A stretch of 64,000 bases of DNA. Origin: Nicotiana tabacum (taxonomy: Eukaryota; Streptophyta; Magnoliopsida; Solanales; Solanaceae). The stretch covers positions 32,096,758 to 32,160,757 of the forward strand of contig NC_134080.1 in the NCBI RefSeq assembly GCF_000715075.1, written 5' to 3'. The number at the start of each line of letters is the position of its first letter. Position 1 is the stretch's first letter. Positions 26,896-62,688 of this stretch are shown here, one piece after another. The notes under the pieces were generated by a model, which was given only the letters and a program-made list of their open reading frames with translations, was not told where the DNA came from and made no database searches. The translations under genes were made by a program, and so were the position numbers.

Positions 26896-27623
26896 GAGGC
26901 CTGCACCAGAACTGGAAATACCATCAACATTTCTAAGTCTAATTTCACTCGGTAGCCTATTCGAAACTCACCCGAGCCCTCGGGGCTCCAAACCAAACAT
27001 GCATACAAGTCTAAAAACATCATACAAACTTGCCCGCACTATCATCGCCAAAATAACACCAAGAACTATGAATTGAGCACCAAATCAAATCAAAATTTTC
27101 AAGAAAACTTTGAAACTTCTATTTTCAGAACCGGACGTCTGAATTACGTCAAACCAACTCCGTTTCTCACCAAATTTCACAAACAAGTCATAAATATGGT
27201 ATTGGACCTATATTGTTTTTCGGAACCAAAATACGAACCCGATATCCAGAAAAAGTCAACCATTGATCAAACATTTCAAATTCATTAAGTCTTTAACTTT
27301 CAAATTTCAATAAAGTCCAATAACTCGGGCTAGGGACTTCTGAATTTGATTTCAGGCATACACCCAAGTCCCAAATCACGATACGGACCCAGCGAGATCG
27401 TCAAAATATGAATCCGGGTCCGTTTGCTCAAAAAGTTGACCAAAGTCAACTCAATGGTTTCCAAAGTAAAATTTCACAATTTTTAACATAAAAGCTTTCC
27501 AAAAATATGCCCGGACAGCGCACGTAATTAGAGGAATGTTAAAATGAGGTTTTTAAGTCTTCAAAGCACATAATTAGTTTCTAAAATATAAGATGACCTG
27601 TCGGTCATCACATTCTCCACCTC

Positions 27624-29100
27624 TAAAACAACCGTTCGTCCTCGAACAGACATAGAAAAGTACCTGGGATGGTGAAAAGGTGGGGATATCTATTTTGCAT
27701 GTCCAGCTCGGATTTCCAAATAGCTGCCTCGACGAGCTGACCTCTCCACTGCACTCGAACTGAAGAATAAATCTTTGATCTCAACGGATCAACCTGCCAG
27801 GGTAGAATAGCCACTGTCTCCTCCTCATAAGTCAAATCCTTGTCCAACTAGACAGAGCTGAAATCTAACACGTGGGATGGATCGCCGTGATACTTCCGGA
27901 GCATGGACACATGGAATACCAGATGAATTGCTGATAAACTGGGTGATAATGCGAGCTTGTAAGCCACCTCACCCACTCTCTGAAGAATCTCAAAACGTTC
28001 GATAATCTAGGGCTCAACTTGCCCTTCTTTCTGAACCTCATTACACCCTTCATGGGTGAAACCTGAAGCAACATCCACTCTCCGACCATGAATGCAACAT
28101 CACGAACTCTACGATCGGCATAACTCTTTTTCCTGGACTGAGCTGTGACAAGTCTATCCTGAACAATCTTGACCTTATCCAAGGCATCATGTGCAAAATC
28201 TGTACCTAATAACCGAGCCTCATCCGGCTCAAACCATCCAACCGGCAATCGACATTGTCTACCATATGATGCCTCATAGGGAGCCATTTGGATGCTCGAA
28301 TGATAGCTGTTGTTGTGGGCAAACTCCGCAAGTGGCAAGAACTGATCCTAAGAGCCTCCGAAGTGCGCTCGGACTGTCCGTCCGTCTGAGGATGAAACGT
28401 CGTGCTCAACTCAACCTGCGTGCCCAACTCATGATGTATTGCACTCCAAAAATGCGAGGTGAACTGCGTACCTCAATCAGAAATGATAGACACGGGCATG
28501 CCGTGAAGAGGGACGATCTCACGGATGTAAATTTCAGCCAACCACACTAAAGAATAGGTAACTACCACATGAATGAAATGCGCTAACTTGGTCAGCCTGT
28601 CCACAATGACCCAAACTGCATCAAACTTCCTCTGAGTCCATGGGAGTCCAACAACAAAATCTATAGTGATACGCTCTCACTTCCACTCAAGAATCTCTAA
28701 CTTCTGAAGCAAACCACCAGGTCTCTGATGCTCATACTTTACCTACTGACAATTTAGACACCGGCCTACATATGAAACTATATCCTTCTTCATCCTCCTC
28801 TACCAATAATGCTGCCGCAAGTCCTGATACATCTTGGCGGTGCCCGGATGAATAGAATATCGGGAATTGTGGGCCTCCTCTAGAATCAACTCACGAAGTC
28901 TATCCACATTAGGTTCAAAACTCCATCATCTCCAACAGTAACCTGCTTGGCATCACCGTGCCACACCGTGTCCCTAAGGACAAGCAAATGAGGGTCATCA
29001 TACTGCCGCTCCCTAATGCGCTCAAACAACGAAGACCGAGCGACCTTACAAGCTAGAACACGACTGGCCTCAGAAACATCCAACCTCATGAACATCTAAT
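27624..29100 (-). pseudogene. element B integrase and chromodomain-like tail
   Basis: Minus-strand integrase segments are at 29095-28886 and 28427-28206 ([13 protein letters not shown]), then 28338-27950 ([30 protein letters not shown]). The tail is at 27847-27623 (VQWRGQLVEAAIW, RYPHLF) and ends FEDERLF at 27647-27626. The DDE core is broken by several stops. The tail's VQWRG block resembles the chromodomain of chromoviruses, which directs integration to particular chromatin. Confidence 0.88.
27634..27647 (-). promoter_or_regulatory. AGGA-loop inverted repeat before 3' LTR (element B)
   Basis: GTTCG-AGGA-CGAAC on the minus strand, 21-22 nt from the 3' LTR edge at 27612. It overlaps the last codons of pol (FEDER). 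Matching copies lie at 42785, 57879 and 62657. Confidence 0.75.
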
Positions 29101-39600: not shown

Positions 39601-40105
39601 CTGTTCCTCGTCACTACTCCACCGAGGTTAGTCATGATACTTACTGGGCACCACTGTGGTGTGCTCATGCTACTCTTCTGCACATTTTTGTTGTGCAGAT
39701 CCTGGTACTTCCACTCAGTTCTATCATCCTTGGGAGGAGGCATTTCTGTAGAGACTTTGAGGTATATCTGCCGCGTCCGTAGACTGAGGAATCCCTTTTA
39801 TTCTTTCTGTAATAAGTATAGCCCTTCAGTATTTTCCCCTTATTTAGACATTTTCGGAGTTAGAGCTTCTTATGTATCTCTTAGCTTGTGATTCGTGAGA
39901 TTCTGGGTTTTGGGAATTGTTGTTAGCTTTGAGAGTTGTAATTATATGTGCTGATCGGTACCTTAAACACTGTTTCATTTTACTATTTCGTTTTTAATTA
40001 TTTCTTCCGTAATTATTGTTTACATTCCGCATTGTTAGGCTTACCTAGTCGTATAGACTAGGTGCTGTCACGATGGTTCACGGAGGGCGAACCGGGGTTG
40101 TGACA
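36681..40105 (+). repeat. 5' LTR of element C
   Basis: 3425 bp, TGTAACGACCTGG to GTTGTGACA. It contains about 650 bp (36920-37575) missing from the 3' LTR, including most of the hairpin-word cluster. It lacks the 37-bp tandem array of the 3' LTR, having instead three GCACACATGGCGAGACAAGG-like units (38826-38930). Confidence 0.92.
37385..37640 (+). repeat. hairpin-word cluster in element C 5' LTR
   Basis: Repeated CTTCGCGTTCGCGAAG-type words, e.g. near 37410, 37457, 37500 and 37540, forming TTCGCG/CGCGAA stems. It lies 0.70-0.96 kb from the LTR start. After it come an AT-rich ATATATCCC and a GGGTAAGTG donor-like site near 37760. Confidence 0.9.
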
Positions 40106-40107
40106 AG

Positions 40108-40120
40108 TTGGTATTAGAGC
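40108..40120 (+). other. primer binding site of element C
   Basis: TTGGTATTAGAGC, one base from the initiator-Met tRNA site, two bases after the LTR. Confidence 0.9.
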
Positions 40121-40308
40121 TCTAGATTCATAGGAGTCATGGATTACAAGCCGGTTTATTATAGTCTCGTTGATCGGTACAGATACGTCTATACTTGTCT
40201 ATGAGAGGCTATGTAATTGTTAGGAAAATTTCCACTTCATTTGATTTCCTTGTCGTGCGAGATTTTTGACCTCACAATCCTAAACCTCTGTCTTCCATTC
40301 TCTCATAG

Positions 40309-41578
40309 ATGGTGAGGACACGTGCTACCCGAGATGATCAGGCACCCGCGCCCCTACTGCTGCCGTCAGAGGTCGGGGACGGGGTAGAGGCCGAGGATGC
40401 ACACGTGGTGCAACCAGAGCACCCGCACGAGCTGCCACCGAGGTACCACCAGCAGTCCCAACCGGAGTCCAGGCACATGACACGCATACTGCTACTACTA
40501 CTCCAGCTCTTCAGGAGACTTTTATGCAGTTTATGAGCATGTACACCACTTTGGCTCAAGCAGGGTTGCTTCCCCTTGCTGCAGCCACATCTCATGCAGG
40601 GGGAGGAGCACAGACTCCCGCCGCCCGCACTCCTGAGAAGCGAGTGCATGTTTAGCAGGTCCTTGAGATTATTCATGTATAGCCTGCAGTTCGATATCAA
40701 CCCGAGTGCAGGGCACCAGCTTCCGAGGAGGAGCAGCTGAGGCTTGAGAGATTCAAGAGGTACAAGCCTCCTGTATTTAGTGGTCTAGCATCGGAGGATG
40801 CTCTGGGATTTCTAGATGAGTGTTACCGCATTCTCCATACCATGGGTATATCGGAATCGAGTGGGGGTTTCTTTTACCGCCTTCTAGCTTCAAGGAGCCG
40901 CCTATGAGTGGTGGCGCACCTATGAGTTAGACAGTCCGGATGAGGCAGCTTTACCGACTTGGACCCAGTTTTTAGATATGTTCCTAAGAGAGTTTGTCAC
41001 TGAGAGCCTCAGAGACAGATGGAGTGCAGAGTTTGAGCATTTGCGCCAGGGTACTATGACTGTCTCGGAGTATGTTGTATGTTACAACAACTTGGCTAGA
41101 CATGCCCCAGCCTTGGTTTCTACTGTTCGCAAGAGGGTTTGCCGGTTTATTAAGGGGATTAATCCCAACATCAGGTCTAGCATGGATTGTGAGTTGGAGA
41201 TAGATATTTCTTATCAATAGGTGGTGAGAATTTCTAGGAGGATAGAGGGTATGCATGCTAGGGAGAGAGAGGAGAGGGAGGCTAAGAGGTCTCGAGAGTT
41301 GGGAGAAAGAGTTTGAGGAGGCGAGGAGGCCTCGTAGACCTAGGATATCTGCTGGTCATTATTTTGGAGGTAGGGTGCGACATGGTAGAGGTTTTGTGGG
41401 TCAGCCAGTTCAGTTTGCACTTCAGGCTTTGCATAGTGACTCAGGTGTTCATGGGTCTCGAAGTGCCCGTACCGTACAGTTTCCACAGCCTCGTCAGTAG
41501 AAAGGTTGCTTTGAGTGTGGAGATACTAGCCATATGGTGAGAGATTGTCCTAGACTTCGGGCCAATGTGTCACAGTGA
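40309..41578 (+). pseudogene. element C gag
   Basis: MVRTRATRDDQAPAP starts the frame, which shifts within the first 60 codons. The gag domain includes RLERFKRYKPPVFSG, EDALGFLDECYRILHTMG, MFLREFVTESLRDRWSAEF and VCYNNLARHAPALV. The knuckle is CFECGDTSHMVRDC near 41510-41551. Stops lie near 40654, 40679, 41218 and 41500. Gag of such elements is thought to package their RNA while a relative supplies the enzymes. Confidence 0.88.
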
Positions 41579-42784
41579 GGTATTTAGGTGAGTAGAGGGC
41601 GCCCGAGAGGAGGAGGCCCGGTTCATTGATGTGTTTCATATAGTAGGCTTGAGGCCGACGCGCTAGCTGAATGTCATTCAGGTATGATTTTGGTTTGTTA
41701 TAGAGGAGCACCATCCGTATTTCATTACAGTTCTACTTATCGGGGTGAGTTTCCCTACTTGTTTCTCCATTTATAGGTGCATTTCATGATTAGCACTATG
41801 TTTATGTGATTACACTGTTGAGAGGTTCTATGAGTGATAGGCGTGTCTATCGTCTGTTTCTAGCCATTGTCGGGAGTTATGAGACTAGTAGTAAATTCCT
41901 ATTGTCCATTTCGGTAGGCTTGATGTGATTTCTGAGTATCTTTGGCTACGACCTATGATTTTATGCTCTACCAGTGCGGGAGCCAGTACGTGTTGTAATT
42001 TTGGTGACGGAATTGATCTAGTGAGAGTTCCTAGCTGATTTGATGTGTACCCTACTTGTGATTTAGGGTGGAGGGAGGGACCCTCGTGATTTCATGTGTA
42101 TTGATGTGTTGAGGTCGGGCTGTGTACCGCGGTGGGAGTTATATCAGTATGAGAGCCTTGTGATTCTTTTATATGCCTTAATTCTTTCTTGTTAGATTGT
42201 TTTGTAGATTAGTGTTGATAGAAAATTTGTGCTTGTCTGGCTTGTTTGGTAGTTCTCTTATGTGTTGCCCTTCCCATATTCAGTCATTTTTGTTCTGTGC
42301 TTTCAGCTTGTGGGTATGTGCCCGTTGGTATTAGCTGAGATTTGGTGATTCAGATGTTTAGTTATGTGGCTTCCATGGTTATTGTATCATCGCCAGTGTG
42401 GTGGGGGTTTGAAACAGGTTTCTATTAGATATGAGGCTTATGGCCGGTGCTAAATTTGATTCCGGACGAATATTGTGATCAGAAATATTACTGTGGGCTA
42501 TATGTGATGTGTCCTATTGTAAGGGTGTACTATATGGGTGTTGGTATGAATTTATGCAGCTAGTTGAGACTGATACCGAGTATGGATTTAGAATCGGGTC
42601 TTTTGAAAATGGATGGAAGATGAGAATTCTGGTTCTAAGGCTTATTGGCATTGCTAGAAAGGCTAAATTTCAGTTGAGATGGTGTCGTCAGGCTTACGTG
42701 GATTGGGGTGACATGCGATCACCCGCAGATGTATGTTGGAAGTGTGTATTCAGTGACTTGAGGACTCGAGGCGAATCTTGGCAT
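41579..42784 (+). other. element C interior without pol
   Basis: About 1.2 kb between gag and the purine tract. I found no protease, RT, RNase H or integrase motif in any frame. Only the last codons, FEDERWF at about 42786-42808, recall a pol end. Confidence 0.7.
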
Positions 42785-42798
42785 GTTCGAGGACGAAC
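42785..42798 (+). promoter_or_regulatory. AGGA-loop inverted repeat before 3' LTR (element C)
   Basis: GTTCG-AGGA-CGAAC, 22 nt before the LTR at 42821. It is kept although the rest of pol has been lost. Confidence 0.78.
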
Positions 42799-42820
42799 GT
42801 TGGTTTTAAGAGGGGGAGGA

Positions 42821-45800
42821 TGTAACGATCTGACCAGTCATTTTGAGAATTTAATATCCGTTCAGCGGTGTAAGGTCTTGAACAACTTTGTAATATGAGC
42901 ATCGACTTGTGTGCATGGTTGAATTCGGTTAATGGATGATTCAGAGTCGAATTGGAAGAAGGAAGGAAGTTTTGGGAGTTTGAACGGTGAGAATTTGACC
43001 AGAATTGGACTTCTTAGTAAACGACACCGGAATGAAATTTTGATAATCCCAACAACTTCGTATCAGCAACCTGGGCAGCCTTAAGTTTTCTTCTTCACGA
43101 ATGCGTCCCTCTCTTCGCGTTCGCGATGCATAAAAACCTGGGCAGACAAAATATATCCCAAAATCGAGGGTGTTACCATATTCATCACATTTTGACTTCT
43201 AGAGCTCGGTTCTTGGTGATTTTTGTTGGGTTTTTCACGAAATTCTATTGGGTAAGTGTTCCTCAACTAGATTTAAATATCTTCCATGAATTTGTCTTTA
43301 TTTTTATCATTTAAATTGTGTTTTGGGTTGGGGAAAGTGTTGGTTTTTGAAGAAAAATTTCAAAGTGAAAAATCATGATTTGAGGGACCAAATGGTATCG
43401 GAATTGGATAAATATTATATGGTTGAACTAATTTTGGATTGGGTGATCAGATTTTGTAAAATTTGATGGGTTCCGAGGTGTGGTCTCGGGGATCGACCTT
43501 TGGGTCGATTTTTATATTTTTGTACAGATTGAAACTTTATTATTCAGAATAATTCCTTATTCGATTTATGTGTGTTTTGGAGTTGTTATAGTTGGATTTG
43601 AGCTGTCCGGAGGTCTTTTCGCCTGAGAAGTCCATTTTAGAGTACCGAGCTATCGTCTTTGAGGTAAGTATCTTGCCTAACCTTGTGTGGGGGACTTCCT
43701 CTTAGGATTGAGTCTTCTATGTTGATTGAAATCCGTGTACGTGAGGTGACGAGTATGTACCCGGACTTAATTGTGGGTAGTTGGCCTTTTAGGGTTCTTA
43801 TGCTCTTATATTCACTATGTATGGAGTTATTCTTGATATGACTGAGTTCCTACTTATTAGTTTTGTCTCTACATGCTTGGATGGAATTGTTTGCTGCATG
43901 ATTTACTCTTATTGCCTAATTGTCATCCTGTTTGATTTAACTGAAGAACTTCGTCTCTCTTATCATCATTCTACCTTTTCATAACTGCCTGCGTTACTGA
44001 GAGTTATTGTCATCCCTCCTATAATCACGTAGTCTTAAGTGCAGCTAAGATCACCTTCCCTTAATTGAAATTACCGAATGTTATTGTAACTTTCCAACCT
44101 TAAACTGAGTTTAGATGACCTATATCTTTGTCGACTTGCCTATATTTGGGACTACTAGACTCGTATTGTCTTCCTTGTACTGATTTTGTTTATTTGGGAT
44201 TGTCACTACATGTTAATTTCCCCTTTCGTTAAATTGTCCCCTTATGCCTTCCATTTTTCTTACTGTGGCTATTCTTGTGAACGGGTTATACCGACTCCTT
44301 GTGCGGATTGTGTTGGTGTACGCGGTCTCTGCCGTGCGGTTGTGGTTGTGTTGGTTCATGAGGTCTCTGCCATGCGATTGTGGTTGTTGGTGCACGAGGT
44401 CTCTGCCGTGCGGTTGTGGTTGTGTTGTGCACGAGGTCTCTACGGTGCGATTGTTGTTGAGGGGTTGCACGAGGTCTTTGCCGTGCTATTGTTACTATTG
44501 ATATATTGCACATGCGGCGTGACAAGACGAAATATGTTTATATATTTATATGTGGGTTGCGCATGTGGCGAGATAAGGTGGGAACATTATGATGCACGTG
44601 TGGCGAAACAAGGCGAGCACTTATTATGTTATTATTTGCACACGTGGCGAGACAAGGTGGGCTGTGTCAGGGATTGATTGTGAGGATTTGTGATGGCCTG
44701 GGGGCATTCATGTTTGTTAATACTATGATTGTGGTACGCTTACCTGTATGAGCTTTATCTCGTGGAAGTTGTGAGGAAACATCGTGTGTGCTGTCTGCTC
44801 TTCTCCTTACGTCTATTAGCTGGTAGGAATTTTTTTAGAGCACTTGTACAAGCATACATGTAGTTGAAGACTCCTATTGGATGTGAAGTCCTCCTAAGTT
44901 TGCTGAGTATAGATGTACACCCTCGTTTACTTATTATATATGTGAGAGTGGCCCTGGTTAGCAAGTGAGTTGTCAGTATGACCATGAGGCTGAAGGGGGC
45001 ACAGGATGCCAAGTGTTAGATTTCAGGTACTGGGACTCGTGAGTTGTAATTGTCCGAGATTCGGTATTTCGTGGAAATTGTTGGATAAGACCTGATGTGA
45101 ACACTGTCGTAGGATCTGAGTTATTACTTACCTTTACTGCATTGTGACTCTAGGATTTGGGTTGCGTTTTTGCTCGCTCTTCTGTGTCATTATTTTGGTA
45201 TTTCGTGTTGCTTGCGGTTTCTTTCCCTTATTGAGATTGTAGTATTATTAGCCATTTTGTGTAGTCTTTATATATACATCATGTCCCGTTGTTCCTATAT
45301 TTGTACAGTTTATTGGACCGGTAGGTATCTTGACTATTCCTCATCACTACTCCACCGCGGTTAGTCTTGATACTTACTGGGCACCGCTGTGGTGTGCTCA
45401 TGCTACTCTTCTGCATATTTTTGTTGTGCAGATCCAGGTATTTACACTCAGTTCTATCATCCTTGGGAGGAGGCATTTCTGTAGAGACTTTGAGGTATAT
45501 CTGCCACGTCCATAGACCGAGGAGTCCCTTTCTATCTTTCTGTAATAAGTATAGCCCTTTAGTACTTTCCCCTTATTTAGACATTTTCGGAGTTAGAGCT
45601 TCTTATGTATCTCTTGGCTTGTGATTCCTGAGATTCCGGGTTTTGGGAATTGTTGTTAGCTTCGAGAGTTGTTATTGTATGTACCGAGCGACACCTTAAA
45701 CGTTTCATTTTACTATTTCGAGTTTTAATTATTTCTTCCGCAATTATTGTTTACATTCCGCATTGTTAGGCTTACCTAGTCGTAGATACTAGGTGCCGTC

Positions 45801-45836
45801 ACAATGGTTCACGGAGGGCGAACCGGGCTCGTGACA
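42821..45836 (+). repeat. 3' LTR of element C
   Basis: 3016 bp, colinear with the 5' LTR except for the missing segment (junction near 43063) and the added tandem array at 44315-44500. Confidence 0.92.
44315..44500 (+). repeat. 37-bp tandem array in element C 3' LTR
   Basis: Five units of about 37 bp with the core GCACGAGGTCTCTGCCGTGC, which has GCACG/CGTGC arms, followed by GGTTGTGGTTG. The 5' LTR has no such array at the matching place. Confidence 0.9.
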
Positions 45837-46227: not shown

Positions 46228-47113
46228 ACCAATGATGATCCGGTGGTGTGTGAGTTCTTATGGAAGAACATCTTTACCCACTTTGGGACACCTCTAGTGC
46301 TTATCAATGATAATGGGTCACACTTTGTAAACAAGCAATTTGTTGTATTGCTGTCCAAGTATGGGGTCACACACAAAATTGGAACCCCGTACTATGCCCA
46401 AACTAGTAGGCAAGTTGAAGTGGCTAACCAAGAGCTTAAACGAATTATTGAAAAAACAGTTAGTGCTTCTCTTAAGGATTGGTCTTTAAAGTTGAATGAA
46501 ACTCGATGGGTGTATAAAACTGCGTTCAAAACAACCATAGGGACTTCACCGTTCAAATTAGTGTATGAAAAATCGTGTCTCCTATATATTGAGATAGAAC
46601 ATAAAGCTTATTGGGAAATTAAGATGTTTAATCTTGATCTTAGTCTTGCAGGTGAACACAAATTGTTGCAGATGAATGAATTGGAGGAGTTTAGATTGGA
46701 TACGTATGAAAATGCACGAATCTTTAAGGAGAAGACATACCGAAAATATATTTATGAAGTTTCCAATTTTTTTATTGATTGACATCAACTCTAGACTCTT
46801 GCCCCAAGAAATAAATTAATGAAGAGGTGACATAATCGCCTGATTAAACCAAAGGAGTTTCATGAAGGGGACAAGGTCTTACTATATAATAGTAGACTTA
46901 GGTTGTTCCCTAAAATATTTCAAGTCAAGGTGGGCAGGTCCGTATGTGGTGAAACATGTCTCACCATATGGCGCCATTGAGATCCAACATGAGGAAGGGA
47001 ATGAGAGCTTTAAAGTGAATGGGAACAAGTTGAAACCGTATCTTGTTGGAGGATTTGACAAGCAATCCTCTAGTATCGTGATTAAATTAGCCTCAGTGAC
47101 TGAGTCAAGCTGA
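46228..47113 (+). pseudogene. Athila-type integrase C-terminal half
   Basis: DPVVCEFLWKNIFTHFGTP and INDNGSHFVNKQF are followed by QVEVANQELKRIIEKTV, DWSLKLNETRWVYKTAF and SPFKLVYEKSC. A frame break near 46780 leads to FHEGDKVLLYNSRLRLFP, then SRWAGPYVVKHVSPYGAIEI. These are hallmarks of Athila-group integrase. The first catalytic Asp is not present. Confidence 0.88.
46862..47113 (+). pseudogene. Athila pol terminal segment after frameshift
   Basis: The reading frame passes to a second one near 46920, giving the C-terminal SH3-like part of integrase (YGAIEIQHEEGNESFKVNG, LKPYLVGGFD) and ending in TESS. It is a continuation of the entry at 46228, listed apart because of the shift. Confidence 0.75.
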
Positions 47114-49772: not shown

Positions 49773-50457
49773 TGTGATGACCCGGCTAGTCGTCTCATGA
49801 GTTACCACTCTACTTCCCCTATTTCTGCATCTTTATGCTTTGTTTATCAGTGTTATGTGGTATCGGGTTGGTCGGATCGAGTTCGGAAAGGATTTGGTAA
49901 GGTTTGAGACACTTAGTCTTTTTAGAGTGAGTTTAAGTTGCAAAAGTCAACCGGATGTTGACTTGTATGTTACAGGGCTCGGATATGAGTTCCAATGGTT
50001 CGGTTAGCTTCGGGAGGTGATTTGGGATTTAGGAGCGCGATCAGAATGAGTTTTGGAGGTTCAGAGTAGATTTAGGCTTGAATTGGTGAAGTTGATATTT
50101 TGGCGATTTTCGATTGGTAGGAAAGATTAAGGCTTGATAGTTGTAATAGTTCCGTTGTGTCATTTGGGACATATGTGCAAAATTTCAGGTCATTCAGACG
50201 TGGTTTGGTTGGGTTTTTGATCAAAAGCGGAATCCAGAAGATTTTGGGAACTTAGGCTTGAATCCGGTGTGTTTTGGTTGATTTGATGTTGTTTGAGGTA
50301 TTTTGAAGATTGGTACAAGTTTGAATAAGGTTTTGGGATACGTTAGTGCTTTTGGTTGAGGTCCCGGGGGCCTCGGGGTGATTTCGGAAGGTTGACGGGG
50401 AGTTTGAGGAATTGTTGCAACTGCAGATTGGTGTTGCTTCTGGTATTTCCACACTTG

Positions 50458-50735
50458 TGGATTGGGGACCGTAGGTGCGATGCCGCATGTGCGGAAGTCG
50501 AGTCGCAGAAGTAGAAGGAACCTCAGAAGCGGTTAAGGGACCGCAGAAGCGGTTAAGGGACCGCAGAAGCGGTTAAGGGACCGCATCTACAAAGGCGCAG
50601 GTGCGATATAGTTCATCGCAGATGCGAAACCTGGGGACTTAAGTGATTTCCGCAGAAGCGGATGAATAACCACAAATGCGGTACCGCAGAAGTGGTAAAT
50701 AGGGCCGCAGATGCGAAAATGCCTGGGTAGAAGGT
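50458..50735 (+). repeat. hairpin-word cluster in element D 5' LTR
   Basis: Words such as CCGCAGAAGCGG, CGCAGATGCG and GCCGCATGTGCGG with CCGC/GCGG or CGCA/TGCG stems, 0.69-0.96 kb from the LTR start. A 20-bp unit with ACCGCAGAAGCGG is repeated three times at 50521-50580, but occurs once in the 3' LTR. Confidence 0.9.
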
Positions 50736-51714
50736 ATAAATTGTGCTCTTCGCGATGTTGAGCTATTTTCACCATTTCTAATTCGGCTTGGGAGCTTTTT
50801 GGACGATTTTGAAGAGGGATTTCAAGGGAACTTCATTGAGGTAAGGAATTTGGACCTAAAACTCGTTCCTATGCTAATATTTCACGGATTAGAGCTTTGA
50901 TTGATGGAATTTAAGGGCTAAAATTGGGGAAACTAGGTCTTGGAAACTTAGACCTTTGCTTGAGTATTTGAAGGACCATTTGAGGTCGGATTTTAGAACT
51001 TTTGATATGTATGAACTCGTGGGGAGATAAGAAAGCTATTGATGTAAAAATTATCGAATTTCGAGATGTGGGCCCGGGGTCGAGTTTGGCCAATTTCAGA
51101 ATTTTTGGTATTATTTGATTGTTTTCGCTTGGGCTTCGTTCCCTTAGCATATTTTGACGTCATGATTCTAATTTTGAATAGATTCGACGCGAGTGGAGGC
51201 CAATTCGAGGGGCAAAGGCATCGCGAAGTAGTATTTTCGCTGGTTTGAGGTAAGTAACCATTGTAAATCTGGAACTGAGGGTACCAAACCCTGGAATTTG
51301 ACTTGTTTTGATAAATGCGGTGACGCGCATGCTAAGTGACGAGCGTGTGGGCGTGCACCAGTAGGGATTGTGACTTGGTCCGTTCCGTAGAGACTATTAA
51401 GCCGCATATTTGATTTGGAATCTCATATTATTCTGTACTTTAGTCATTTATACTCTATTATGGGTTGTATCCCATGTTTGGGGCCTTGTGGCGACCTGTT
51501 GAGACCCTTAAGGGCATTTTTACTGTTTTTCCTCACTTTACTTGTTGAAAGCATAGCCTTAGTCATGTTTATACCTGTTTAAATGTTTAAAACTGGTTTT
51601 ATCAGTCCACTTCTAATTGTGTGGACTGTTTGGGCTGAGTTCCCTAATTTTTATTGTTGTGCCCGAGAGGCTGTGAGGTTAATGACTGAGAGAGGTTGAG
51701 AACCTAATATTGGG

Positions 51715-51925
51715 GATATTATATGTATATATTATGGATTGGGCTGCACGTCGTAGTGATATATATTTGATCGGGTTGCACGCCGCAAAGATAACGATAT
51801 ATATATATATATTGGATCGGGATGCACGCCGCAGCGATATGACGTTTGGGCTGTAGGAGCCCCTCCATAGTCTATACACCCCCAGTAAGCGTAGTCGACT
51901 ATAAATTATGTACCGGGCTGCACGC
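51715..51925 (+). repeat. second tandem array in element D 5' LTR
   Basis: Roughly 30- to 55-bp irregular units with GGGCTGCACGCCGCAGCGAT, i.e. GCTGC/GCAGC arms, separated by ATATAT tracts. The partner is at 59855-60020. Confidence 0.82.
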
Positions 51926-52730
51926 CACAACGGTTATTATGATTTCTATTATTATGAGATATTAATGAGCCTGAGTGTTGAGAGTGAGTACTGAGTGACG
52001 AGAGTGAGTCACGAGTGACTGAGAGGCTGCCCGAGAGGCCATGTTCTGAGTGATACCTTGTTTGAGGGGCCCAGTTATGATATTTTCACTAATTTCACTC
52101 TTCTTTTAAAAATAGTCTTTGTTGGAAAAATTGCTAAGTATATGATTTCAAGTGTTTAAACTGAAGTTGATAATTTTACGATGAAACTGGTTTTAAACTG
52201 TGAAATGGATTTGTTATCCTATTGTTTATTCAGTTATATGATTTTTAACTGCTCGTCACTACTTTCAGACCTTATTTACTTTAGTTACTTACTAAGTTGG
52301 CATACTCACGTTACTCCCTACACCTTGTGTGCAGATTTAGGTGCCCGAGTGGTAGAGTGAGGGTCCTCAGCTGATCCAGAGGTTGCCGGAGATTTCAAGG
52401 TAGCTGCATGGCATTCGCAACCCTGTTTTCTCCTTCTTATCTTGTTCTTTTCCGTATTTTTCTATACTTTTGGTTGTATCAGACAGTCAGTTATGTAATA
52501 GAGGCTCTAGACTCATGACACCAGATATTTGAGGCTGCATAGTTTTCATGTTTTATTTGAGTTTCGCATATGTAATTGTGTTTTATATGCTTATTATGAA
52601 AATTTGGTATTTAAACCTGTGTTAGAAGATGGTTTTATAAAAGGAATTTGTTGTAGTTAAATGGTTTGGGTTGGCTTGCCTAGTAATATGATAGGCGCCA
52701 TCACGACCGGATATTTCGAGCCGTGACAAG

Positions 52731-52743
52731 TTGGTATCAGAGT
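52731..52743 (+). other. primer binding site of element D
   Basis: TTGGTATCAGAGT, initiator-Met type with one change, two bases after the LTR. Confidence 0.92.
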
Positions 52744-52929
52744 CTAGGTTACATAGGTCTCGCGAATCATGAGCCGGTTTAGTAGAGTCTCGCAGATCGG
52801 TACAGAGACGTTTGTATTTATCCTCGAGAGGCTACAGAACCTTTAGGAAAAACTTCATATTCTTGAAATTTTTGTCGTGCGAATCTATTGATCCGAATAC
52901 TAAACCTCTGTTATTCCATTCTCTCACAG

Positions 52930-54430
52930 ATGGTGAGAACAAGTGCTACCGGGTAGGATGGACGACTGCCAGTACCTCCAGCTGAGGCCACCAGAGGCCG
53001 AGAACGCGGTCGAGGCCGTGGTAGGGGCAGAGCAGCTAGGGCAGCACCTGCGAATCCACCAGCTTCCCCAGTTCAGGATTAGGTCCTAGCTGTGGACGCT
53101 ACAGCAGCACCAGTTCAGGCACCAGCTGTGCCTATTATGATTCCAGGCCTTTAGGAGGCTCTAGCTCATATCTTATCAGTGTGTACCGATTTAGCTCAGG
53201 TGGTTTCAGTTACTACGGTCACAACTACTTCTCAGGCCGGGGGAGGCACCCAGACTCCCGTTGCTCGCACACCTGAGAAGGTTGTGCAGAGACTCCAGAC
53301 ACCAGGGGCACCTCCAGCCCAGCCGGTTGCACAAGCTCTAGAGTTTGTGGTACCAGTTATGCCGGACGACAAGCAGCGTCGACTAGAGAGGTTTGGTAGA
53401 CTCAAGCCTCCGACTTTTAGTGTTGTAGAGGGTGAGGATGCCCAGGGTTTCTTAGACAAGTGCCAGAGGATTCTTCATATAGCGGGGATTCTAGAGACCA
53501 GTGGTGTAGCTTTTACCACCTTTCAGTTTTCTAGGGCTGCCTTCACTTGGTGGGAGGCATATGAGAGACGTAGGCCTGTTGGTGCAGCGCCCCTTACTTG
53601 GCAGCAGTTCTCTGTTCTCTTTCTAGAGAAGTATGTGCCACAGTCTCGCCGAGAAGAGCTGCACAGGCAGTTCGAGCAGTTGTATCAGGGAGATATGATT
53701 GTGACAAAATATGAGATATGGTTCTCTGAGTTAGCTCGTCATGTGGTCTGGTTGGTTCCGACAGATTGAGAGAGGATTATGAGGTTTGTTAATGGTCTCA
53801 TATATTAGCTTCGGATTCTCATGACTAGGGAGAGGGTGACGGGTGCTACCTTCAAGGAGGCTCTTGACATCACCGGTGAGATTGAGTCGGTTCGCTGCTA
53901 GGAGCGAGAAGAGAGAGAGGCCATGAGGCCTCGGGGATCTGGTAGATTTAGTGGTGCTCCTTCGAGGGGTCAATTCCAGCAGGGCAGAGGCCGCCCATCC
54001 AGACAGGCTCATTCAACTCACCCAGGTAATTGTGAGGCATCATCGGGTCATGGTTCTCACAGTTCTCATGAGGGCCACTCCTCACTCAGTGCCCTTCTAG
54101 CCTAGAGTTCATCTCGTGCTCCATCAGTGCAGGGTTCTTCCATGCCAGGTCCTTCTACTGGTCATTCCGGTGCCAGGGGTTTCCTTCAATCCCCATCTCC
54201 AGCACTGGGAAGTTGTTATGAGTGTGGAGAGTTTGGGCATATGAGGAGGCAGTGTCCTCATCTTCATGATGATCAGTCTCAGCAGAGGGGTCAACCCTCG
54301 ACTTCTGCTCCAGTTACTTTACCACCCGCCCAGCCAGCTAGGGCTAGAGGTTAGTCAGCCAGGGGTCGCCCTAGAGGGGGAGGTCGATCAGGTGGTGGTC
54401 AGGCCCGTTTCTATTCCCCCTAGGTACACC
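52930..54430 (+). pseudogene. element D gag, one frame with nine nonsense codons
   Basis: From MVRTSATG at 52930 the same frame stays readable to about 54425. Nonsense codons lie at 52954, 53080, 53152, 53767, 53806, 53899, 54103, 54352 and 54421; all but 53767 (TGA) are TAG. The gag domain includes RLERFGRLKPPTFSVVEG, DAQGFLDKCQRILHIAG, WQQFSVLFLEKYVPQ and YQGDMIVTKYEIWF. The knuckle CYECGEFGHMRRQC lies near 54214. Frame retention with many stops points to point decay rather than rearrangement. Confidence 0.92.
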
Positions 54431-56470
54431 AGATGTTGTTGCTGCTTCAGATGCCGTGATTTCAAGTATTGTTTCAGTCTGCCACAGAGATGCCTCTGTA
54501 TTATTTGATCCCGGTTCCACCTTTTCTTATGTGTTATCATACTTTGCTCGTTATCTGGATACGCCCCATGAGTCTCTTATTTCACCTATTCATGTATCTA
54601 CTCCAGTGGACGATACCATTATTGTAAACCGTGTGTACCGGTCATGTGTGGTGACTATTGGGGGTCTAGAGACCCGAGTGGATCTTTTATTATTGTATAT
54701 GGTGGATTTCGATATCATTTTGGGCATGGACTGGTTATCTCCGTGTCATGCTATTCTGTACTATCATGCCAAGACAGTCACATTGGATATACCGGGTTTG
54801 CCACAGATTGAGTGGTGAGGTTTGACTGATTATGTTCCCAGTAGAGTGATCTCATTCTTTAAGGCCCAGCGTATGGTTGGGAAGGGATGTCTTTCGTATC
54901 TAGCCTTTGTGAGGGATGTCGGAGCTGAGACTCCCAGTATTGATTCTGTTCCAGTTGTGAGGGATTTTCCCAATGTGTTTCCTGCAGACCTGCCAGACAT
55001 GCCACCGAACAGGGATATTGATTTTGGTATTGACCTGGTGCCAAGCACTCATTCCATTTCTATTCCGATGTATCATATGGCACCAACGGAGTTGAAGGAA
55101 TTAAAAGAGCAGCTTCAGGAACTCCTCGATAAGGGGTTCATTTGGCCTAGTGTGTCACCTTGAGGTGCGCCAGTTCTATTTGTGAAGAAGAAGGATGGCA
55201 CTATGAGGATGTGCATTGATTATAGGCAATTGATTAAAGTAACAATTAAGAACAAGTATCCTTTGCCTCGCATTGATGATTTATTCGACTAACTTCAGGG
55301 AGTGAAAGTATTCTCCAAGATTGATCTCCGTTCGCTCTATCATCAGTTGAAGATCAGGGACTCAGATATTCTTAAGACAGCTTTCAGAACCCGATATGGT
55401 CATTATGAGTTCTTGGTGATGTCTTTTGGGCTGACCAATGCCCAGCAGCATTCATGCATTTGATGAACAGTGTGTTTCGTCCTTATCTTGACTCATTTGT
55501 CATAGTCTTCATTGATGATATTCTGGTATATTCGCGTAGTCAAGAGGAGCACGCGGAGCATTTGAGAGTCATGTTGCAGAGATTGAGAAAGGAGAAGCTT
55601 TATGCAAAATTCTCCAAGTGTGAGTTTTGTCTCAGTTCAGTGGCTTTCTGGGGGCACGTGATGTCCAGCGAGGGTATTTAGGTTGATCTGAAGAAGATAG
55701 AGGCGGTTCAGAGTTGACCCAGACCATCCTCAACCATAGAGATTCGCAGCTTTCTTGGTTTGGCAGGCTATTATCGCTGGTTTATTAAGAGATTCTCATC
55801 TATCGCATCACCCTTGACCAAGTTGACTCAGAAAGGTGATTCATTTGTATGGTCGGACGAGTGTGAGAAGAGCTTTCAAAAACTCAAGACAGCTTTGACC
55901 ACAGCTCCAGTGTTAGTTTTGCCATCAGCTTCAGGTTCATATACCGTGTATTGTGATGCTTCGAGAGTTGGTATTGGTTGTGTTTTGATGTAGGAGGGTA
56001 GAGTTATTTCTTATGCTTCTCATCAATTGAAGCCCCATAAGAAGAACTACCTCATTCATGATTTGGAGTTGGCTACCATAGTTCACACGTTGAAAGTTTA
56101 GAGGCATTACTTTTATGGTGTGTCTTGTGAGGTGTTTACTGATCATCGTAGCCTCCAGCACTTGTTCAAGCAGAAGGATCTCAATTTGAGGTAGCGAAGG
56201 TGGTTGGAGTTGCTTAAGGATTATGATATCACTATATTGTACCATCCAGGGAAGGCCAATGTGGTGGTCGATGCTTTGAGCCGAAAGGCGGTGAGTATGG
56301 GGAGTTTGGCATATATTCCAGTTGGGGAAAGACCTCTTGCGGTTGATGTTCAAGCCTTGTCTAATCGGTTTGTGAGCTTAGATGTTTCGGAGCCAGTCGG
56401 GTATTGGCTTGCAAGGTTTCTCGGTCTTCCTTATATGATTGCATTAGAGAGCGCTAGTACGATGATCCAC
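54431..56470 (+). pseudogene. element D protease, RT and RNase H
   Basis: Protease: SVLFDPGSTFSYVLS and DIILGMDWLSP (54500-54760). [47 protein letters not shown] and FIDDILVYS (55509-55535), then FLGLAGYYRWFI. RNase H: YTVYCDASRVGIGCVLM, HDLELATIV, TDHRSLQHLF, VVVDALSRK. Nonsense codons lie at 54816, 55161, 55290, 55679, 55715, 55991, 56099 and 56192. One C is missing near 55440, shifting the frame, and a second shift falls near 56440. Confidence 0.93.
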
Positions 56471-57900
56471 ATTTGCTTGACCTTAAGGACAGAGCTCAGC
56501 ATGATGATGTCAGAGATGTGACCATTGGTGATGATGGGGTGTTGAGGATGCAGGGCCAGATTTGTGTGCCCAATGTAGATGGGCTTCAGGAGTTGATTCT
56601 GGAGGAGGCCCATAGCTCGCGGTATACCATTTATCCGGGTGCCACGAAGATGTATTAAGATCTGAGACAACATTATTGGTGGAGAAGAATGAAGAAAGAC
56701 ATTGTGGGATTTGTAGCTCAGTGTCTCAATTGTCAGCAGGTGAAATATGAGCATCAGAGACCGGGTGGCTTGCTTCAGCAGATAGATATTCTAGAGTGGA
56801 AGTGGGAAAGGATCACTATGGACTTTATTGTTGGACTTCTACAGATTTTTAGAAAGTTCGATGCTATTTGGGTGATTGTGGATCGGCTGACCAAGTTCGT
56901 GCACTTCATTCCTGTGTGTACTACCTATTCTTCAAAGCGGTTGGCAGAGAGCTATATCCAGGAGATTGTATGGTTGCATGGTATCCCAGTGTCCATCATT
57001 TTAGATAGGGGCACTCAGTTTACTTCGTAGTTTAGGAGGTCTGTGCAGCGAGAGATGGGTACTCAGGTTGAGTTGAGCACAACTTTTCACCCTTAGACGG
57101 ACGGACAGTCCGAGCGCACTATTCAGATATTGGAGGACATGTTGCGTGCTTGTGTCATTGATTTTAGAGGGTCATGGGATCAGTTTCTACCGCTTGCAGA
57201 GTTTGCTTATAACAACAGCTACTAGTCGAGTATTCAGATAGCTCCATATGAGGCTTTGTATGGGAGGCGGTGTAGATCTCCAGTTGGTTGGTTCGAGCCC
57301 GATGAGGCTAGGCTATTGGGGATAGACCTGGTGCAGGATGCTTTAGAAAAGGTGAAGGTAATTCAGGAGAGGCTTCGTACCGTGCAGTCGAGGCAAAAGA
57401 GTTATGCTGATAGGAAGGTTCGAGATGTGTCTTACATGGTTGGCGAGAAGGTTCTGTCGAAGGTTTCACCCATGAAGGGTGTTATGAGATTTGGGAAGAA
57501 AGGGAAATTGAGTCCTTGGTTTATTGGGCCTTTTGAGGTTCTTCGGAGGATTGGGGAGGTGGCTTATAAGCTTGCTTTGCCACCCAGCTTGTCGAGTGTA
57601 CATCCGATATTTCATGTTTCTATACTCCAGAAGTATATTAGAGATCCGTCTCATGTTTCTGATTTCAGCACGGTTCAGTTGGATGATGATTTGACTTATG
57701 ATGTGAAGCCAGTAGCTATTTTGGGTCATCAAGTTCGAAAGTTGAGGTCAAAGGATATAGCTTCGGTGAAAGTGTAGTGGAGAGGTCGGCCCATGGAGGA
57801 GGCTACCTGGGAGACCGAGCGGGAGATGTGGAGCAGATATCCTCACCTGTTTGAGGCTTCATGTATGTTTCTTGACTCGTTCGAGGACGAACGTTTGTTT
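56471..57900 (+). pseudogene. element D integrase with chromodomain-like end
   Basis: The zinc-binding region HSSRYTIYPGATKMY lies before a TAA at 56655, then CLNCQQVKYEHQRPGGLL. The core has MDFIVGLLQ, VDRLTKFVHFIPV and ILDRGTQFTS, then [16 protein letters not shown]. The C-terminus is [51 protein letters not shown], then EEATWETEREMWSRYPHLF, ending FEDERLF. TAG at 57028, 57094, 57223 and 57775. The WRG...EEATWE block resembles a chromodomain. Confidence 0.93.
57879..57892 (+). promoter_or_regulatory. AGGA-loop inverted repeat before 3' LTR (element D)
   Basis: GTTCG-AGGA-CGAAC, 21 nt before the LTR at 57914, overlapping the FEDER codons. Confidence 0.78.
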
Positions 57901-57913
57901 AAGTTGGGGAGGA

Positions 57914-60900
57914 TGTTAGGACCTGGCCAGCCGTCTCATGAGTTACCACTCCGCTTCCCCCATTTCTGCTTTTTTATGCTTTGTTTATCTGTGTTATGTG
58001 GTATCGGGTTGGTCGAATCGAGTTCGGAAAGGATTTGGTAAGGTTTGAGACACTTGGTCTCTTTAGAGTGAGTTTAAGTTGAAAAAGTCAATCAGATGTT
58101 GACTAGTGTGTTAGAGGGCTTGGATGTGAGTTCCGATCATTCGGTTAGCTTTGGGAGGTAATTTGGGATTTAGGAGCGCGATCGGAATTAGTTTTGGAGG
58201 TTCGGAGTAGATTTATGCTTGAATTGGCGAAGTTGATATTTTGAAGATTTTCGGTTGGTAGGCGAGATTTTGATATAAGGGTCGGAATGGAATTCCGAGA
58301 GTTGCAGTAGTTCTATTGTGTCATTGGGGATGTGTGTGCAAAATTTCAGGTTATTCCAACGTGGTTTGGTTAGGTTTTTGATCAAAAGCGGACTCCGAAA
58401 GATTTTGGGAACTTAGGCTTGAATCCGGTGTGTTTTGGTTGATTTGATGTTGTTTGAGGTGTTTTGAAAATTGGTACAAGTTTGAATAAAGTTTTGGGAT
58501 ATATTGGTGCTTTTGGTTGAGGTCCCGAGGGCCTCAGGGTGATTTCGGAAGGTTGACGGGGAGTTTGAGGAAATGTTGCAGCTATAGATTGTGCCGCTTC
58601 TGGTATTTCCGCACTTGCGAATTGGGGACCGCAGGTGCGACGCCATATATGCGGAAGTGGAGTTGCAGAAGCGGAAGGAACCGTAGAAGCGGTTAAGGGA
58701 CCGCATCTGCGAAGGCGCATGTGCTGTATTGTTCATCGCAGATGCGAAACCTAGGGACTTAAGTGATTTCCGCAGAAGCAGATGAATAACAGCAAATGCG
58801 GTACTGCAGAAGCGGTAAATAGGGCCACAAATGCGAAAATACCTGGGCAAAAGGTATAAATTGTGCTCTTCGCGATTTTGAGCTATTTTCGCCATTTCAA
58901 ATTCGGCATGGGAGCTTTTTTGACGATTTTGAAGAGGGATTTCAAGGGAACTTCATTGAGGCAAGGAATTTGGACCTAAAACTCGTTCCTATGCTACTAT
59001 TTCACGGATTAGAGCTTTGATTGATGGAATTTAAGGGCTAAAATTAGGGAAATTAGGGCTTGGAAACTTAGACCTTTGCTTGAGGATTTAAAGGATCATT
59101 TGAGGTCGGATTTCAAAACTTTTGATATGTATGAACTCGTGGGGAGATAAGAAAGCTATTGATATAAAAATTATCGAATTTTGAGACGTGGACCCGGGGG
59201 TCGGGTTTGGCCAACTTCGGGATTTTTGGTATTATTTAATTGTTTTCGCTTGGGCTTCGTTCCCTTATCATATTTTGATGTTGTGATTTTGATTTTGAAT
59301 AGATTAGACGTGAGTGGAGGCCAATTCGAGGGGCAAAGGCATCGCGGATTAGTATTTTCGCTGGTTTGAGGTAATTAACCATTGTAAATCTGGAACTGAG
59401 GGTACAAAACCCCGGTATTTGAACTTTTTTTATAATGTGGTGACGCACATGCTAGGTGACGAGCGTGTGGGCGTGCACCGGTAGGGATTGTGACTTGGTC
59501 CGTCCTGTAGAGCCTATTAAGCTGCATATTTAATTTGAAATCTCACATTATTCCGTACTATAGCCATTTATACTGTATTATGGGTTATATTCCATATTTG
59601 GGGCCTTGTGCCGATCTGTTAAGACCCTTAGAGGTATTTTTACTATTTTTGCTCACTTTACTTGTTGAAAGCATAGCCTCAATCATGTTTTTACCTGTTT
59701 ACATGTTTAAAACTGGTTTTATCACTCCACTTCTAATTGTGAGAACTGTTTGGGCTGAGTTCCCTAATTTCTATTGTTGTGCCCGAGAGGCTGTGGGGTT
59801 AATGATTGAGAGAGGTTGAGAACCTAATATTGAGGATATTATATGTATATATTATGGATTGGGCTGCATGCCGTAGCAATATATATATATATATAGAACC
59901 TAATGGTGAGGATATTTATATATCTATGAATTATGGATCGGGCTGCATGCCGCAACAATACTTATATGGATTGGGCTGCACGCCGCAATGATATTTATAT
60001 TGGATCGGGCTGCGCGCCGCAGCGATATGACGTTTGGGCTGTAGGAGCCTCTCCGGAGTTTGTACACCCCAAGTGAGCGTAGTCGACTATAAATTATGGA
60101 CCGGGTTTCACGTCGCAATGGTTATTATGATATCTATTATTATGAGATATTAATGAGCCTGAGTGCTGAGAGTGAGTACTGAGTGACGAGAGTGAGTCAC
60201 GAGTGACTGAGAGGCTGCCCGAGAGGCCATGTTCTGAGTGATACCTTGTCCGAGGAGCCCAGTTATGATATTTTCACTGATTTCACTCTTTTTTTAAAAA
60301 TAGCCTCTGTTGGAAAAATTGCTAAGTATATGATTTCAAGTGTTTAAACTGAAGTTGATAAGTTTACGATGAAACTGGTTTTAAACTTTGAAATGGATTT
60401 GTTATCCTATTGTTTATTCAGTTATATGATTTTTAACCGCTCGTCACTGCTTTCAGACCTTATTTACTTTAGTTACTTACTGAGTTGGCGTACTCACATT
60501 ACTCCATGCACCTTGTGTGCAGATCCAGGTGCCCGAGTGTCAGAGTGAGGGTCCTCAGCTGATCCAGAGATTGCTGGAGATTTCAAGGTAGCTGCATGGC
60601 GTCCGCAACCCTATTTTCTCCTTCTTATCTTGTCCTTTTCCACATTTTTCTATACTTTTGTTGTATTAGACAGTCAATTATGTAGTAGAGGCTCTAGACT
60701 CATGACACCAGATATTTGGGGCTGTGTAGTTTTCTTGTTTATTTGACTTCCGCATATGTAATTGTGTTTTAAACGCTTATTATGAAAATTTGGTATTCAA
60801 ATCTGTGTTAGAAAATGGTTTTATAAAAGGAATTTGTTGTAGTTAAATGGTTTGGGTTGGCTTGCCTAGTAATATGATAGGCGCCATCAAGACCGAATAT

Positions 60901-60914
60901 TTGTGGTCGTGACA
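57914..60914 (+). repeat. 3' LTR of element D
   Basis: 3001 bp, TGTTAGGACCTGG to GGTCGTGACA, colinear with the 5' LTR including both repeat clusters (58598-58850 and 59855-60020). Substitutions are scattered, so the insertion is not very recent. Confidence 0.94.
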
Positions 60915-60941: not shown

Positions 60942-60955
60942 CATTGAGGACAATG
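60942..60955 (+). promoter_or_regulatory. AGGA-loop inverted repeat, variant arms (Athila remnant)
   Basis: CATTG-AGGA-CAATG is followed 19 nt later by the end of the purine run AAGTGTGGGG. It has the same centre and spacing as the GTTCG version but all different arm pairs except the outer C/G type. It lies just downstream of the env-position ORF once element D is removed. Confidence 0.72.
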
Positions 60956-60974
60956 CAATTTGTTAAGTGTGGGG

Positions 60975-62656
60975 TGAGGTGCTCCTATTTGTTTGTAGTT
61001 GTTTGTTTTCTATTTGCTAATTAACTTTTTTTGATTTGTTTCTTGCTTTCTTAGACAATATGGTCTATAAATGATAATTCTGAATTCTATTGGTTTGTAA
61101 TAGTTAGTAATTAATTGTTTAGTTTTGACCCTTCCCAACGATGGATTTCGTCAACTGATTTCTTGCGGGATTTAAAGTCGAACGAGAACAAGACAAAAAA
61201 AAATAAAAAAATTTGAAAATCCAAAGATATGTCTTTATTTTTATTGTATTTTATTTTATTTTCCTTTCTTAGGTAGTTAATAATTCTTCTTTGGTTTTTC
61301 TTTGTGTCGTGGTTCTTTTACAAGGGCTTTTATTTAAATCGGGTATAGTTAGTTTTTATTTTAGTTTTATAGAAATAAAATCTCGAGTCATAGTACTAAT
61401 TTGAAGAAATTTTCCTTGACTGCATATGCCTTGAGAGTGATGAGTGCCTTAGTTGTGACGCCTAGGCTCAGTTCTGAACTCATGGATAAGTACCTTAAAT
61501 TGCTTGATTGTGACTTTGCTTAAGTGCTTTGACTAGAGAATCGAGATAGATCCGATCTTAAGTGAGTTATGTATCAATATGTGAGTAAGATTTTTGTTGA
61601 TATTCTGTGCATGTCAGTTGATGTCTAGAACTTGCCTTGTATATTTGCAAAGCGAAATGGTAGGTTTGTTTAGTCTAGAAAGTGATAGAGGCATTTCTTT
61701 TTTGAGCCAATTATATGTCTGTAACCCGTCTAATTGTTGTATATCCTAGTTTGCCTCGTTGAGCCTGCAATCCTATTTTCTTTAGTAATCACACTACAAG
61801 CCTGACATGTTTGTTGAATTGACCATTTATTTGAACAGTTTTTCTCTCATGAGAACTTGAAATATTTATGAGCTTGTTAAAAGCTAAGTATAGGTATGGT
61901 TGGGGTTTTGAGTGAAACTGAAGGATAGGAAAAATGTGCACTGTTTGAAAAAAAATGTAAGAGCCACTTGTAGGGAATTGAAAAAAAATAAGAGAAAAGA
62001 AATTCATAACTTAAAAAAAAAGAGAAAAAGGTTGATGTTGTATATGTTATAAAGCAAATTATTCCTTGCTAGTAGTAAATCTTGTTTTGTGTGTGCTTAA
62101 AAATATTGGACACGGTGTTATTTTGTGAAGGTTGGGGAGTGGTTCAACATAAGTGTGGGGTTTGAATTGGTGAAATTGTATGTATTAAAGTGCTCAGGGA
62201 GGTATAGTCCCTATATCCAAATGTATCCTACCTGTCTCGCAGCCTACATTACAACCAAAATAAAGTCATACTTGATCTTTGACTGAATAAACTCAATTAG
62301 TAGAGTATTACACTACGGACAAGCCTATGGTACATCTTTTGTGGAATATGAATTTTGATTCTGAGAGTGAGTGAATTTTTCTATCTTGAGTTCCTATTCA
62401 TTCTTGAATTTTATTTTGTATAGGAACTCTCTATTTTTCGTGTGAGGGCACATGACTTGCGAAGGAAAGGTAATGTCGTTGACCTTTTTGTTAAAGTAAA
62501 TGAGCAGGTTGTGAAAAATGCGTGGTGCTTTTGAGTCGAGCTTTGAAGCTAGGATGTTATGATAGGGTGTTTTGTCTGCTTTAAATATTCTTGGCATGAT
62601 GTTTTAAGGAAGTTGTTTGATGAAAAGGCCGTTCCTATGTCAAGTGTAGTTTCATT
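60975..62656 (+). other. Athila 3' untranslated region
   Basis: AT-rich 1.7 kb between the first purine tract (AAGTGTGGGG, 60965-60974) and the terminal one (62679-62688). A short ORF, 62559-62675, ends SLFEDEQ. Nothing else is supported. Confidence 0.5.
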
Positions 62657-62670
62657 GTTCGAGGACGAGC
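62657..62670 (+). promoter_or_regulatory. AGGA-loop inverted repeat before Athila 3' LTR
   Basis: GTTCG-AGGA-CGAGC, 18 nt before the LTR. The one change from the chromovirus version keeps a U-G pair in RNA. It lies in a 38-codon open frame that could be chance. Confidence 0.75.
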
Positions 62671-62688
62671 AATAGTTTAAGTGTGGGG

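Follow-up and report, generated by a model that had tools for sequence, protein, structure and literature searches.

Why should four Ty3-type elements within a single 64,000-nt stretch of the tobacco genome (the window) carry the same short inverted repeat, GTTCG-AGGA-CGAAC, just before the purine tract (PPT) of the 3' LTR? In many plants, Ty3-type elements make up much of the genome, and we know of little description of their cis signals beyond the PBS and the PPT. A first-pass annotation of the window had offered two answers, i.e., codon constraint on the FEDER end of pol, which the repeat overlaps, or a structured signal for plus-strand priming, RNA 3' processing or packaging.

The positions given for the repeat proved correct: the 14-mer GTTCGAGGACGAAC lies exactly at 27634-27647 (minus strand), 42785-42798 and 57879-57892 in the elements called B, C and D, and the copy in an Athila-like remnant, at 62657-62670, departs from it by one mismatch. 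The distances to the LTR held for D and B (21 nt each) and for C (22 nt), and the 18 nt reported for the Athila-like copy was obtained with only one choice of TG, the other giving 21 nt, in a window without a second LTR for that copy. When up to three mismatches are allowed, the window has six matches to the 14-mer where 2.45 would be expected; the loose word by itself is thus weak, and position is what counts. A scan of both strands for a GGA loop on a stem of at least 5 bp with a purine tract downstream returned five places, whereas 30 first-order Markov sequences averaged 0.57; the five were the four copies already noted and one at 60942-60955 that had been missed:

57878..57893, plus strand: hairpin of D, CGTTCG-AGGA-CGAACG, 6 bp (motif match, stem scan, folding)
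57901..57913, plus strand: purine tract of D, 9 nt past CGAA, with the 3' LTR starting at 57914 (LTR-pair edges)
27632..27649, minus strand: hairpin of B, CTGTTCG-AGGA-CGAACGG, 7 bp including one U.G (motif match, stem scan, folding)
27613..27624, minus strand: purine tract of B, 10 nt past CGAA, with the 3' LTR starting at 27612 on the minus strand (LTR-pair edges)
42783..42800, plus strand: hairpin of C, ATGTTCG-AGGA-CGAACGT, 7 bp including one U.G, in an element without detected pol
42808..42820, plus strand: purine tract of C, 10 nt past CGAA, with the 3' LTR starting at 42821 (LTR-pair edges)
62654..62673, plus strand: hairpin of the Athila-like remnant, ATTGTTCG-AGGA-CGAGCAAT, before the 3' LTR, 8 bp including one U.G
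62679..62688, plus strand: purine tract of the Athila-like remnant, AAGTGTGGGG, 9 nt past CGAG
60942..60955, plus strand: fifth hairpin, CATTG-AGGA-CAATG, 5 bp (stem scan, folding)
60965..60979, plus strand: internal purine tract of the Athila-like remnant, AAGTGTGGGGTGAGG, 10 nt past CAAT and about 1.7 kb before the LTR

From the stem base to U3 there are 20, 19 and 20 nt in D, B and C. The fifth hairpin, which starts 28 bases past the right edge of D and stands before AAGTGTGGGG as an internal purine tract, has three of its five pairs changed on both sides relative to GTTCG/CGAAC. Covariation as strong as that among the five window copies appeared in 0 of 500 shuffles, a test that leans toward pairing, since the row at 60942 was noticed partly because it is paired. 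The sequence TAAGTGTGGGG occurs at 48483, 60964, 62150 and 62678 on the plus strand, in or near the Athila-like region, which suggests several PPT-like sites there; the GGA hairpin is absent at two of these four (48483 and 62150), and before the first of the two, CATTG and CAATG flank a wider gap. One extra PPT has been reported for Athila4 and Calypso in the accessible part of PMC2829016. Separately, an inverted repeat of 6-7 bp was seen 3 nt inside the LTR in three of the six LTR copies of B, C and D (those starting at 49773, 36681 and, on the minus strand, 27612), with differing arms (GATGAC/GTCGTC, AACGAC/GTCGTT and GATGACC/GGTCATC); the PPT may have a hairpin on either side, one of them inside the LTR, and a 6 bp inverted repeat is reached by 27% of random 34-mers.

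The host elements are all old copies, judging from LTR pair identities of 87% in D, 91-94% (in pieces) in C and 82% in B, and BLASTN at 1e-3 found no similarity among their three 3' LTRs. D (49773-60914) is a plant Ty3/gypsy element, with gag and Ty3-type integrase C-terminal domains (matches to Retrotrans_gag and SH3_Tf2-1), an LTR pair, a PBS and a PPT; its insertion into the Athila-like remnant is marked by the 5-bp repeat CCTTT. The Athila-like region yielded only an rve match at 46228-46779, below the curated cut-off; for the remnant at 62.6 kb, as for the TTTAAGTGTGGGGG sites discussed below, we use the name Athila provisionally, following the annotation in the case of the remnant. C (36681-45836) is a Ty3 derivative with gag (Retrotrans_gag at 40888-41217). 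The earlier observation was that it has lost the rest of pol and still keeps the stem; no pol family was detected in its eight plus-strand ORFs of at least 60 aa, nor did its interior match any of 352 integrase-tail proteins. Three parts of that interior recur in D, namely its first 0.3 kb, a stretch of 59 nt and its final 45 nt, the last of these comprising hairpin and PPT; the match to B consists of comparable short pieces together with the final 35 nt. C resembles B and D only at the hairpin-PPT end and in short stretches toward the PBS and gag. In C and D the 5' LTR is adjoined by TGGTAT(C/T)AGAG, presumably a primer site of the tRNA-iMet type.

The assembly from which the window was taken (4.0 Gb; 3,996,098,646 bases) allowed the position of the repeat to be followed beyond these few copies. 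The exact 14-mer occurs 30,537 times (15,372 + 15,165) and its reversed control 6 times (0 + 6). In 44 of the 48 copies read, which were taken from the first ~100 listed and all lie on contig 1, a fixed rule found a purine tract after the 14-mer, 9 nt past CGAA in 40 of them; by eye, the remaining four have damaged tracts downstream. The converse approach started from sites chosen without the hairpin. A sequence joining PPT and LTR start, TTTAAGNGGGGGAGGATGT, occurs at 8,734 places (control 0), and among 70 of these, read from the first ~100 listed on contig 1, 68 carry the core with at most three mismatches, against 1.9% of random segments, the core-to-tract gap being 9 nt in 57 and 10 nt in 11. 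Athila-type sites, chosen by TTTAAGTGTGGGGG alone (185 places, control 15), had GGA in place at 30 of the 50 read among the first ~100 listed; the other 20 had no GGA in place and include, by our reading, several unrelated repeats or relics. The annotation had named absence of the stem from most intact Athila copies as a refuting result; the 30 of 50 with GGA in place are Athila-type PPT sites, which are not proven intact elements. A third PPT type (62 places) had GGA in place at 19 of the 20 sites read.

Loops in the Athila-type and third sets are AGGA, GGGA and rarely CGGA, while the stems differ in step; since the register used for the genome PPT sets favours GGA, this constancy of the loop is partly by construction. 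The gap to the PPT is 9-10 nt in the window, 8-11 and 7-10 nt in the Athila-type and third sets, and 8-9 nt in 17 of 21 fitted peptide tails of related proteins; the position of the inverted repeat is thus fixed near the junction of PPT and 3' LTR, with a gap of 7-11 nt overall. In one tract type, with TTTAAGGGGGG, the spacing is 7 nt where the arms are AACATTCG/CGAATGTT and 9-10 nt where they are of the GTTCG type, and the gap seems to be set per family. Searches of plasmid and phage collections gave no hairpin match, tight hairpin patterns had no match in a viral contig collection without plant DNA, and loose patterns in viral and genome contigs, also without plant DNA, returned bacterial and phage chance matches that were not used. 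No related locus was confirmed in collections without plant DNA apart from one contig; this IMG/VR viral contig (L240:1-4265) starts with a plant Ty3-type integrase fragment fused to phage-like genes and is probably a chimeric assembly.

One account of such a repeat would be that the protein demands it, i.e., that the hairpin is a by-product of codons for the FEDER end of pol. To its credit, the FEDE-type peptide is the commonest reading, in 46 of the 64 tails placed on a tree. These tails came from three protein searches (the best 120 of ~8,000 scored in each; 352 distinct relatives, proteins only), in which the tail peptides, where they extend far enough, often fit the same bases read as FEDE, as SRT(K/N) or as RGR, i.e., in three frames. 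On a quick tree of the 64 proteins with the tails removed, which like the tail wobble count given below uses only tails matching the chosen peptide readings, the reading changes 11 times; if only starred branches are counted, the three labels still require 7, 6 and 4 changes, and one starred clade holds VSRTKL, SFEDET and KFRGRNF. The hairpin of C, moreover, sits within an open frame read as VRGRT in an element without detected pol, and the Athila-type copies have quite different arms. Codon constraint was consequently rejected as the sole cause, and of all the explanations weighed here we give it the smallest chance, a very slight one. Where a purine tract was readable behind the tail, the core was found in 16 of 22 tails, with a core list widened after the tails had been seen (P0315 and P0348 match only the widened list). 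Of the six without it, P0098, P0115 and P0249 are by our reading chance fits elsewhere, P0106 is doubtful, and P0135 and P0193 are true misses; in these last two, the tail RIQGLNS replaces the core before a clear purine tract, with codons that would allow a different hairpin.

If the sequence is kept as a structure, then its arms ought to change together, and between families they do. Of 184 possible pairs, the 23 distinct arm pairs of the Athila-type set form 154 as standard pairs; shuffling the 3' arms gave 108.4 (sd 7.3), and 0 of 5000 shuffles came up to the observed value. Examples are GTGCATTG-GGGA-CAATGCAC, ATTGCTCG-AGGA-CGAGCAAT and AAGACATG-GGGA-CATGTCTC. The third PPT type, with 14 distinct arms and, like the Athila-type set, a register set by GGA alone, gave 88 of 112 pairs against 80.9 shuffled (12 of 5000). 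For the fifth pair, exact 14-mers in the genome number 30,537 with G/C, 16,879 with A/T, 3,719 with A/C and 4,212 with G/T, i.e., 7,931 unpaired or wobble, where independence would predict ~513 with A/T; these are copies rather than events, counted genome-wide with only some checked at a PPT. Among the peptide tails, 58 distinct ones gave 4.31 extra Watson-Crick pairs against 2.94 (0 of 5000), a set that includes some chance core matches (P0050, P0349). Their flank residues, which share ancestry, allow 36 of 48 pairs against 24.3 (8 of 20,000), and for those flanking FEDE, three full pairs are possible with 9 of the 16 distinct combinations, where shuffling gives 3.75 (13 of 20,000), N/I, I/N, S/T, T/S, M/H, A/S and P/R among them. 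In these peptide tests the synonymous bases of the relatives were free to choose, in the shuffles as well, and the peptide readings were widened after the tails had been seen.

The excess of paired changes that the annotation had asked for was therefore found between families, and within one family it failed to appear. Among the 70 sites, from related subfamilies, pairs numbered 371 of 468 against 365.3 shuffled (145 of 2000), with only pair 7 exceeding the shuffles and pair 8 falling below them, and in the other register 301 of 400 against 297.3 (911 of 5000). Given the age of these copies, mostly neutral decay is to be expected among them, and the null result means that the signal lies between families, whose ancestry is shared and whose counts are not events. 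The arms do differ in step between families beyond chance, with shared ancestry not removed. Paired changes of this kind would also arise without selection if reverse transcriptase (RT) switched templates at a quasi-palindrome and so perfected its arms; this mutational origin leaves unexplained the near-constant loop, the gap to the PPT and the presence of the core at 68 of 70 PPT-chosen sites, and we regard it as improbable.

With the structured signal so preferred, it may be asked in which nucleic acid it acts. The palindrome is symmetrical in both strands, and could work as DNA, either as a minus-strand hairpin or as a binding site in duplex form for, e.g., integrase or a host factor. G.U mismatches are about as frequent as A.C mismatches, at ~12 and 11 in the commonest types of the Athila-type set and 5 and 4 in the peptide tails. 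The three non-Watson-Crick pairs in the window stems, a small number, are all T.G in the RNA sense with no A.C, and arms that vary widely between families are unlike a sequence-read site. As the larger of the wobble counts does not lean toward RNA, action as DNA is kept as an unlikely alternative that still deserves some weight. In predicted folding, the window 20-mers have free energies of -6.3 to -7.6 kcal/mol and the internal site -2.8, with z scores for the five of -1.56, -2.79, -2.46, -4.76 and -5.52, and the 51-56 nt contexts fold no more stably than is usual for shuffles (z -1.60, -1.18, +0.27 and -1.02). Positions 24000-64000 of the window gave no Rfam match at gathering scores, and no tRNA genes were found in the window.

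The loop hardly varies, the arms change in step, the gap is almost fixed and the hairpin persists without pol; together these features argue for a nucleic-acid signal tied to the PPT, and on this comparative evidence the GGA-centred inverted repeat 7-11 nt before the PPT is best read as a structured cis element of that kind. The structured signal suggested at the outset is thereby upheld, by the 68 of 70 PPT-chosen sites that keep the core and by Athila-type arms that pair beyond shuffles, its exact role being what we infer. The hairpin stays at the PPT without pol in C and stands also at the internal PPT (60942-60979), and for this reason it is assigned to the plus-strand priming module, where it would presumably act as RNA in the genomic transcript. 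Our main reading, to which we give a probability of roughly 0.5, is that the predicted RNA hairpin helps the RT or nucleocapsid of the element to place the plus-strand primer cut. RT making the minus strand would meet U3 first, the PPT next and then the hairpin, and a pause or docking at that point could bring its RNase H close to the PPT/U3 junction, 19-20 nt behind the stem base in B, C and D. When RT stalls at the base of a hairpin, polymerase-dependent RNase H cuts increase, and in Ty3 RT a distance of ~13 bp separates the two active sites, according to the portions available of PMC3187697 and PMC5371799, respectively; with the stem-to-U3 distance, this spacing makes docking or pausing at the hairpin geometrically possible. 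A roadblock would not need a fixed loop, and the weak stems of the window copies speak against a plain roadblock and for loop recognition. The near-constancy of the loop suggests that a protein would read GGA, the stem needing only to pair.

Recognition of the loop is also the heart of the strongest rival, in which the hairpin is a binding or packaging signal for the Gag nucleocapsid, whose zinc knuckles would read the GGA-type loop, its proximity to the PPT being incidental. Retroviral packaging hairpins present G-rich loops to nucleocapsid, and a kept loop (AGGA, GGGA, rarely CGGA) on stems that vary in step is the pattern of a loop-read hairpin, with the proviso on register made above. A packaging signal, however, need hold no gap of 7-11 nt to the PPT, nor stand at an internal PPT, and we consider packaging possible but a good deal less probable than a part in primer placement. 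The repeat might otherwise be half of a bipartite tRNA primer site bridging the RNA ends, as in yeast Ty3, which pairs the T-arm of its tRNA near the RNA 3' end (PMC5371799, in the part available); the sites beside the 5' LTRs of C and D fit such a scheme, and the arms vary with each other rather than being fixed to one tRNA, leaving it a shade less credible even than template switching. Returning to primer placement, its boldest form is that both deep plant Ty3 lineages share an unrecognised RNA ruler, with a stem rewritten in step and a GGA loop 7-11 nt before the PPT, that would dock or stall RT and so direct RNase H to the correct base for cutting the plus-strand primer; we advance this general form tentatively, as doubtful though somewhat likelier than packaging.

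Being retained in different families and reading frames, the hairpin offers a way into the question of how the plus-strand primer is chosen, and it can serve in practice to mark the edge of the 3' LTR in plant elements. It carries a warning as well: the FEDE, SRT and RGR ends of annotated pol represent a nucleic-acid signal and not protein function.

How, then, does this hairpin compare with systems already known? Retroviral packaging stem-loops likewise combine a paired stem with a conserved loop, and lie in the 5' leader, whereas the present hairpin is beside the PPT. No description of it was found in the literature searched, the available parts of PMC1142308 and PMC3185511 included, which does not imply its absence from print. 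Among elements of the same superfamily, the position from chromodomain to PPT is clade-specific in the chromoviruses of Beta vulgaris (PMC3605345) and the PPT sequence is conserved in group A of the plant CRM elements (PMC3059260); the main texts of these two papers contain the word hairpin 0 times, and the parts available mention no palindrome before the PPT. Yeast Ty3 also has cis signals near the 3' end of its genomic RNA, and its PPT lies in a base-paired region, but the available portions of PMC5371799 and PMC11381356 describe no GGA-loop hairpin at a fixed distance before it. The closest precedent comes from the Sireviruses and from nearly half of the classic Ty1/copia elements examined, in which an inverted repeat encloses the PPT, its left arm bordering the tract, its right arm inside the 3' LTR, the PPT in the loop and the arms averaging 19-28 bp (PMC2829016, as far as available). 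The arm layout of that PPT-flanking repeat is not the one found here, since in the five window copies both arms precede the PPT, on a stem of ~5-9 bp with a GGA-type loop and in Ty3 hosts. The likeness is of another order: in both cases the repeat can overlap coding sequence, there in elements with a short linker, and in both it is precisely placed at the plus-strand primer site and common to divergent elements (PMC2829016, same portion).
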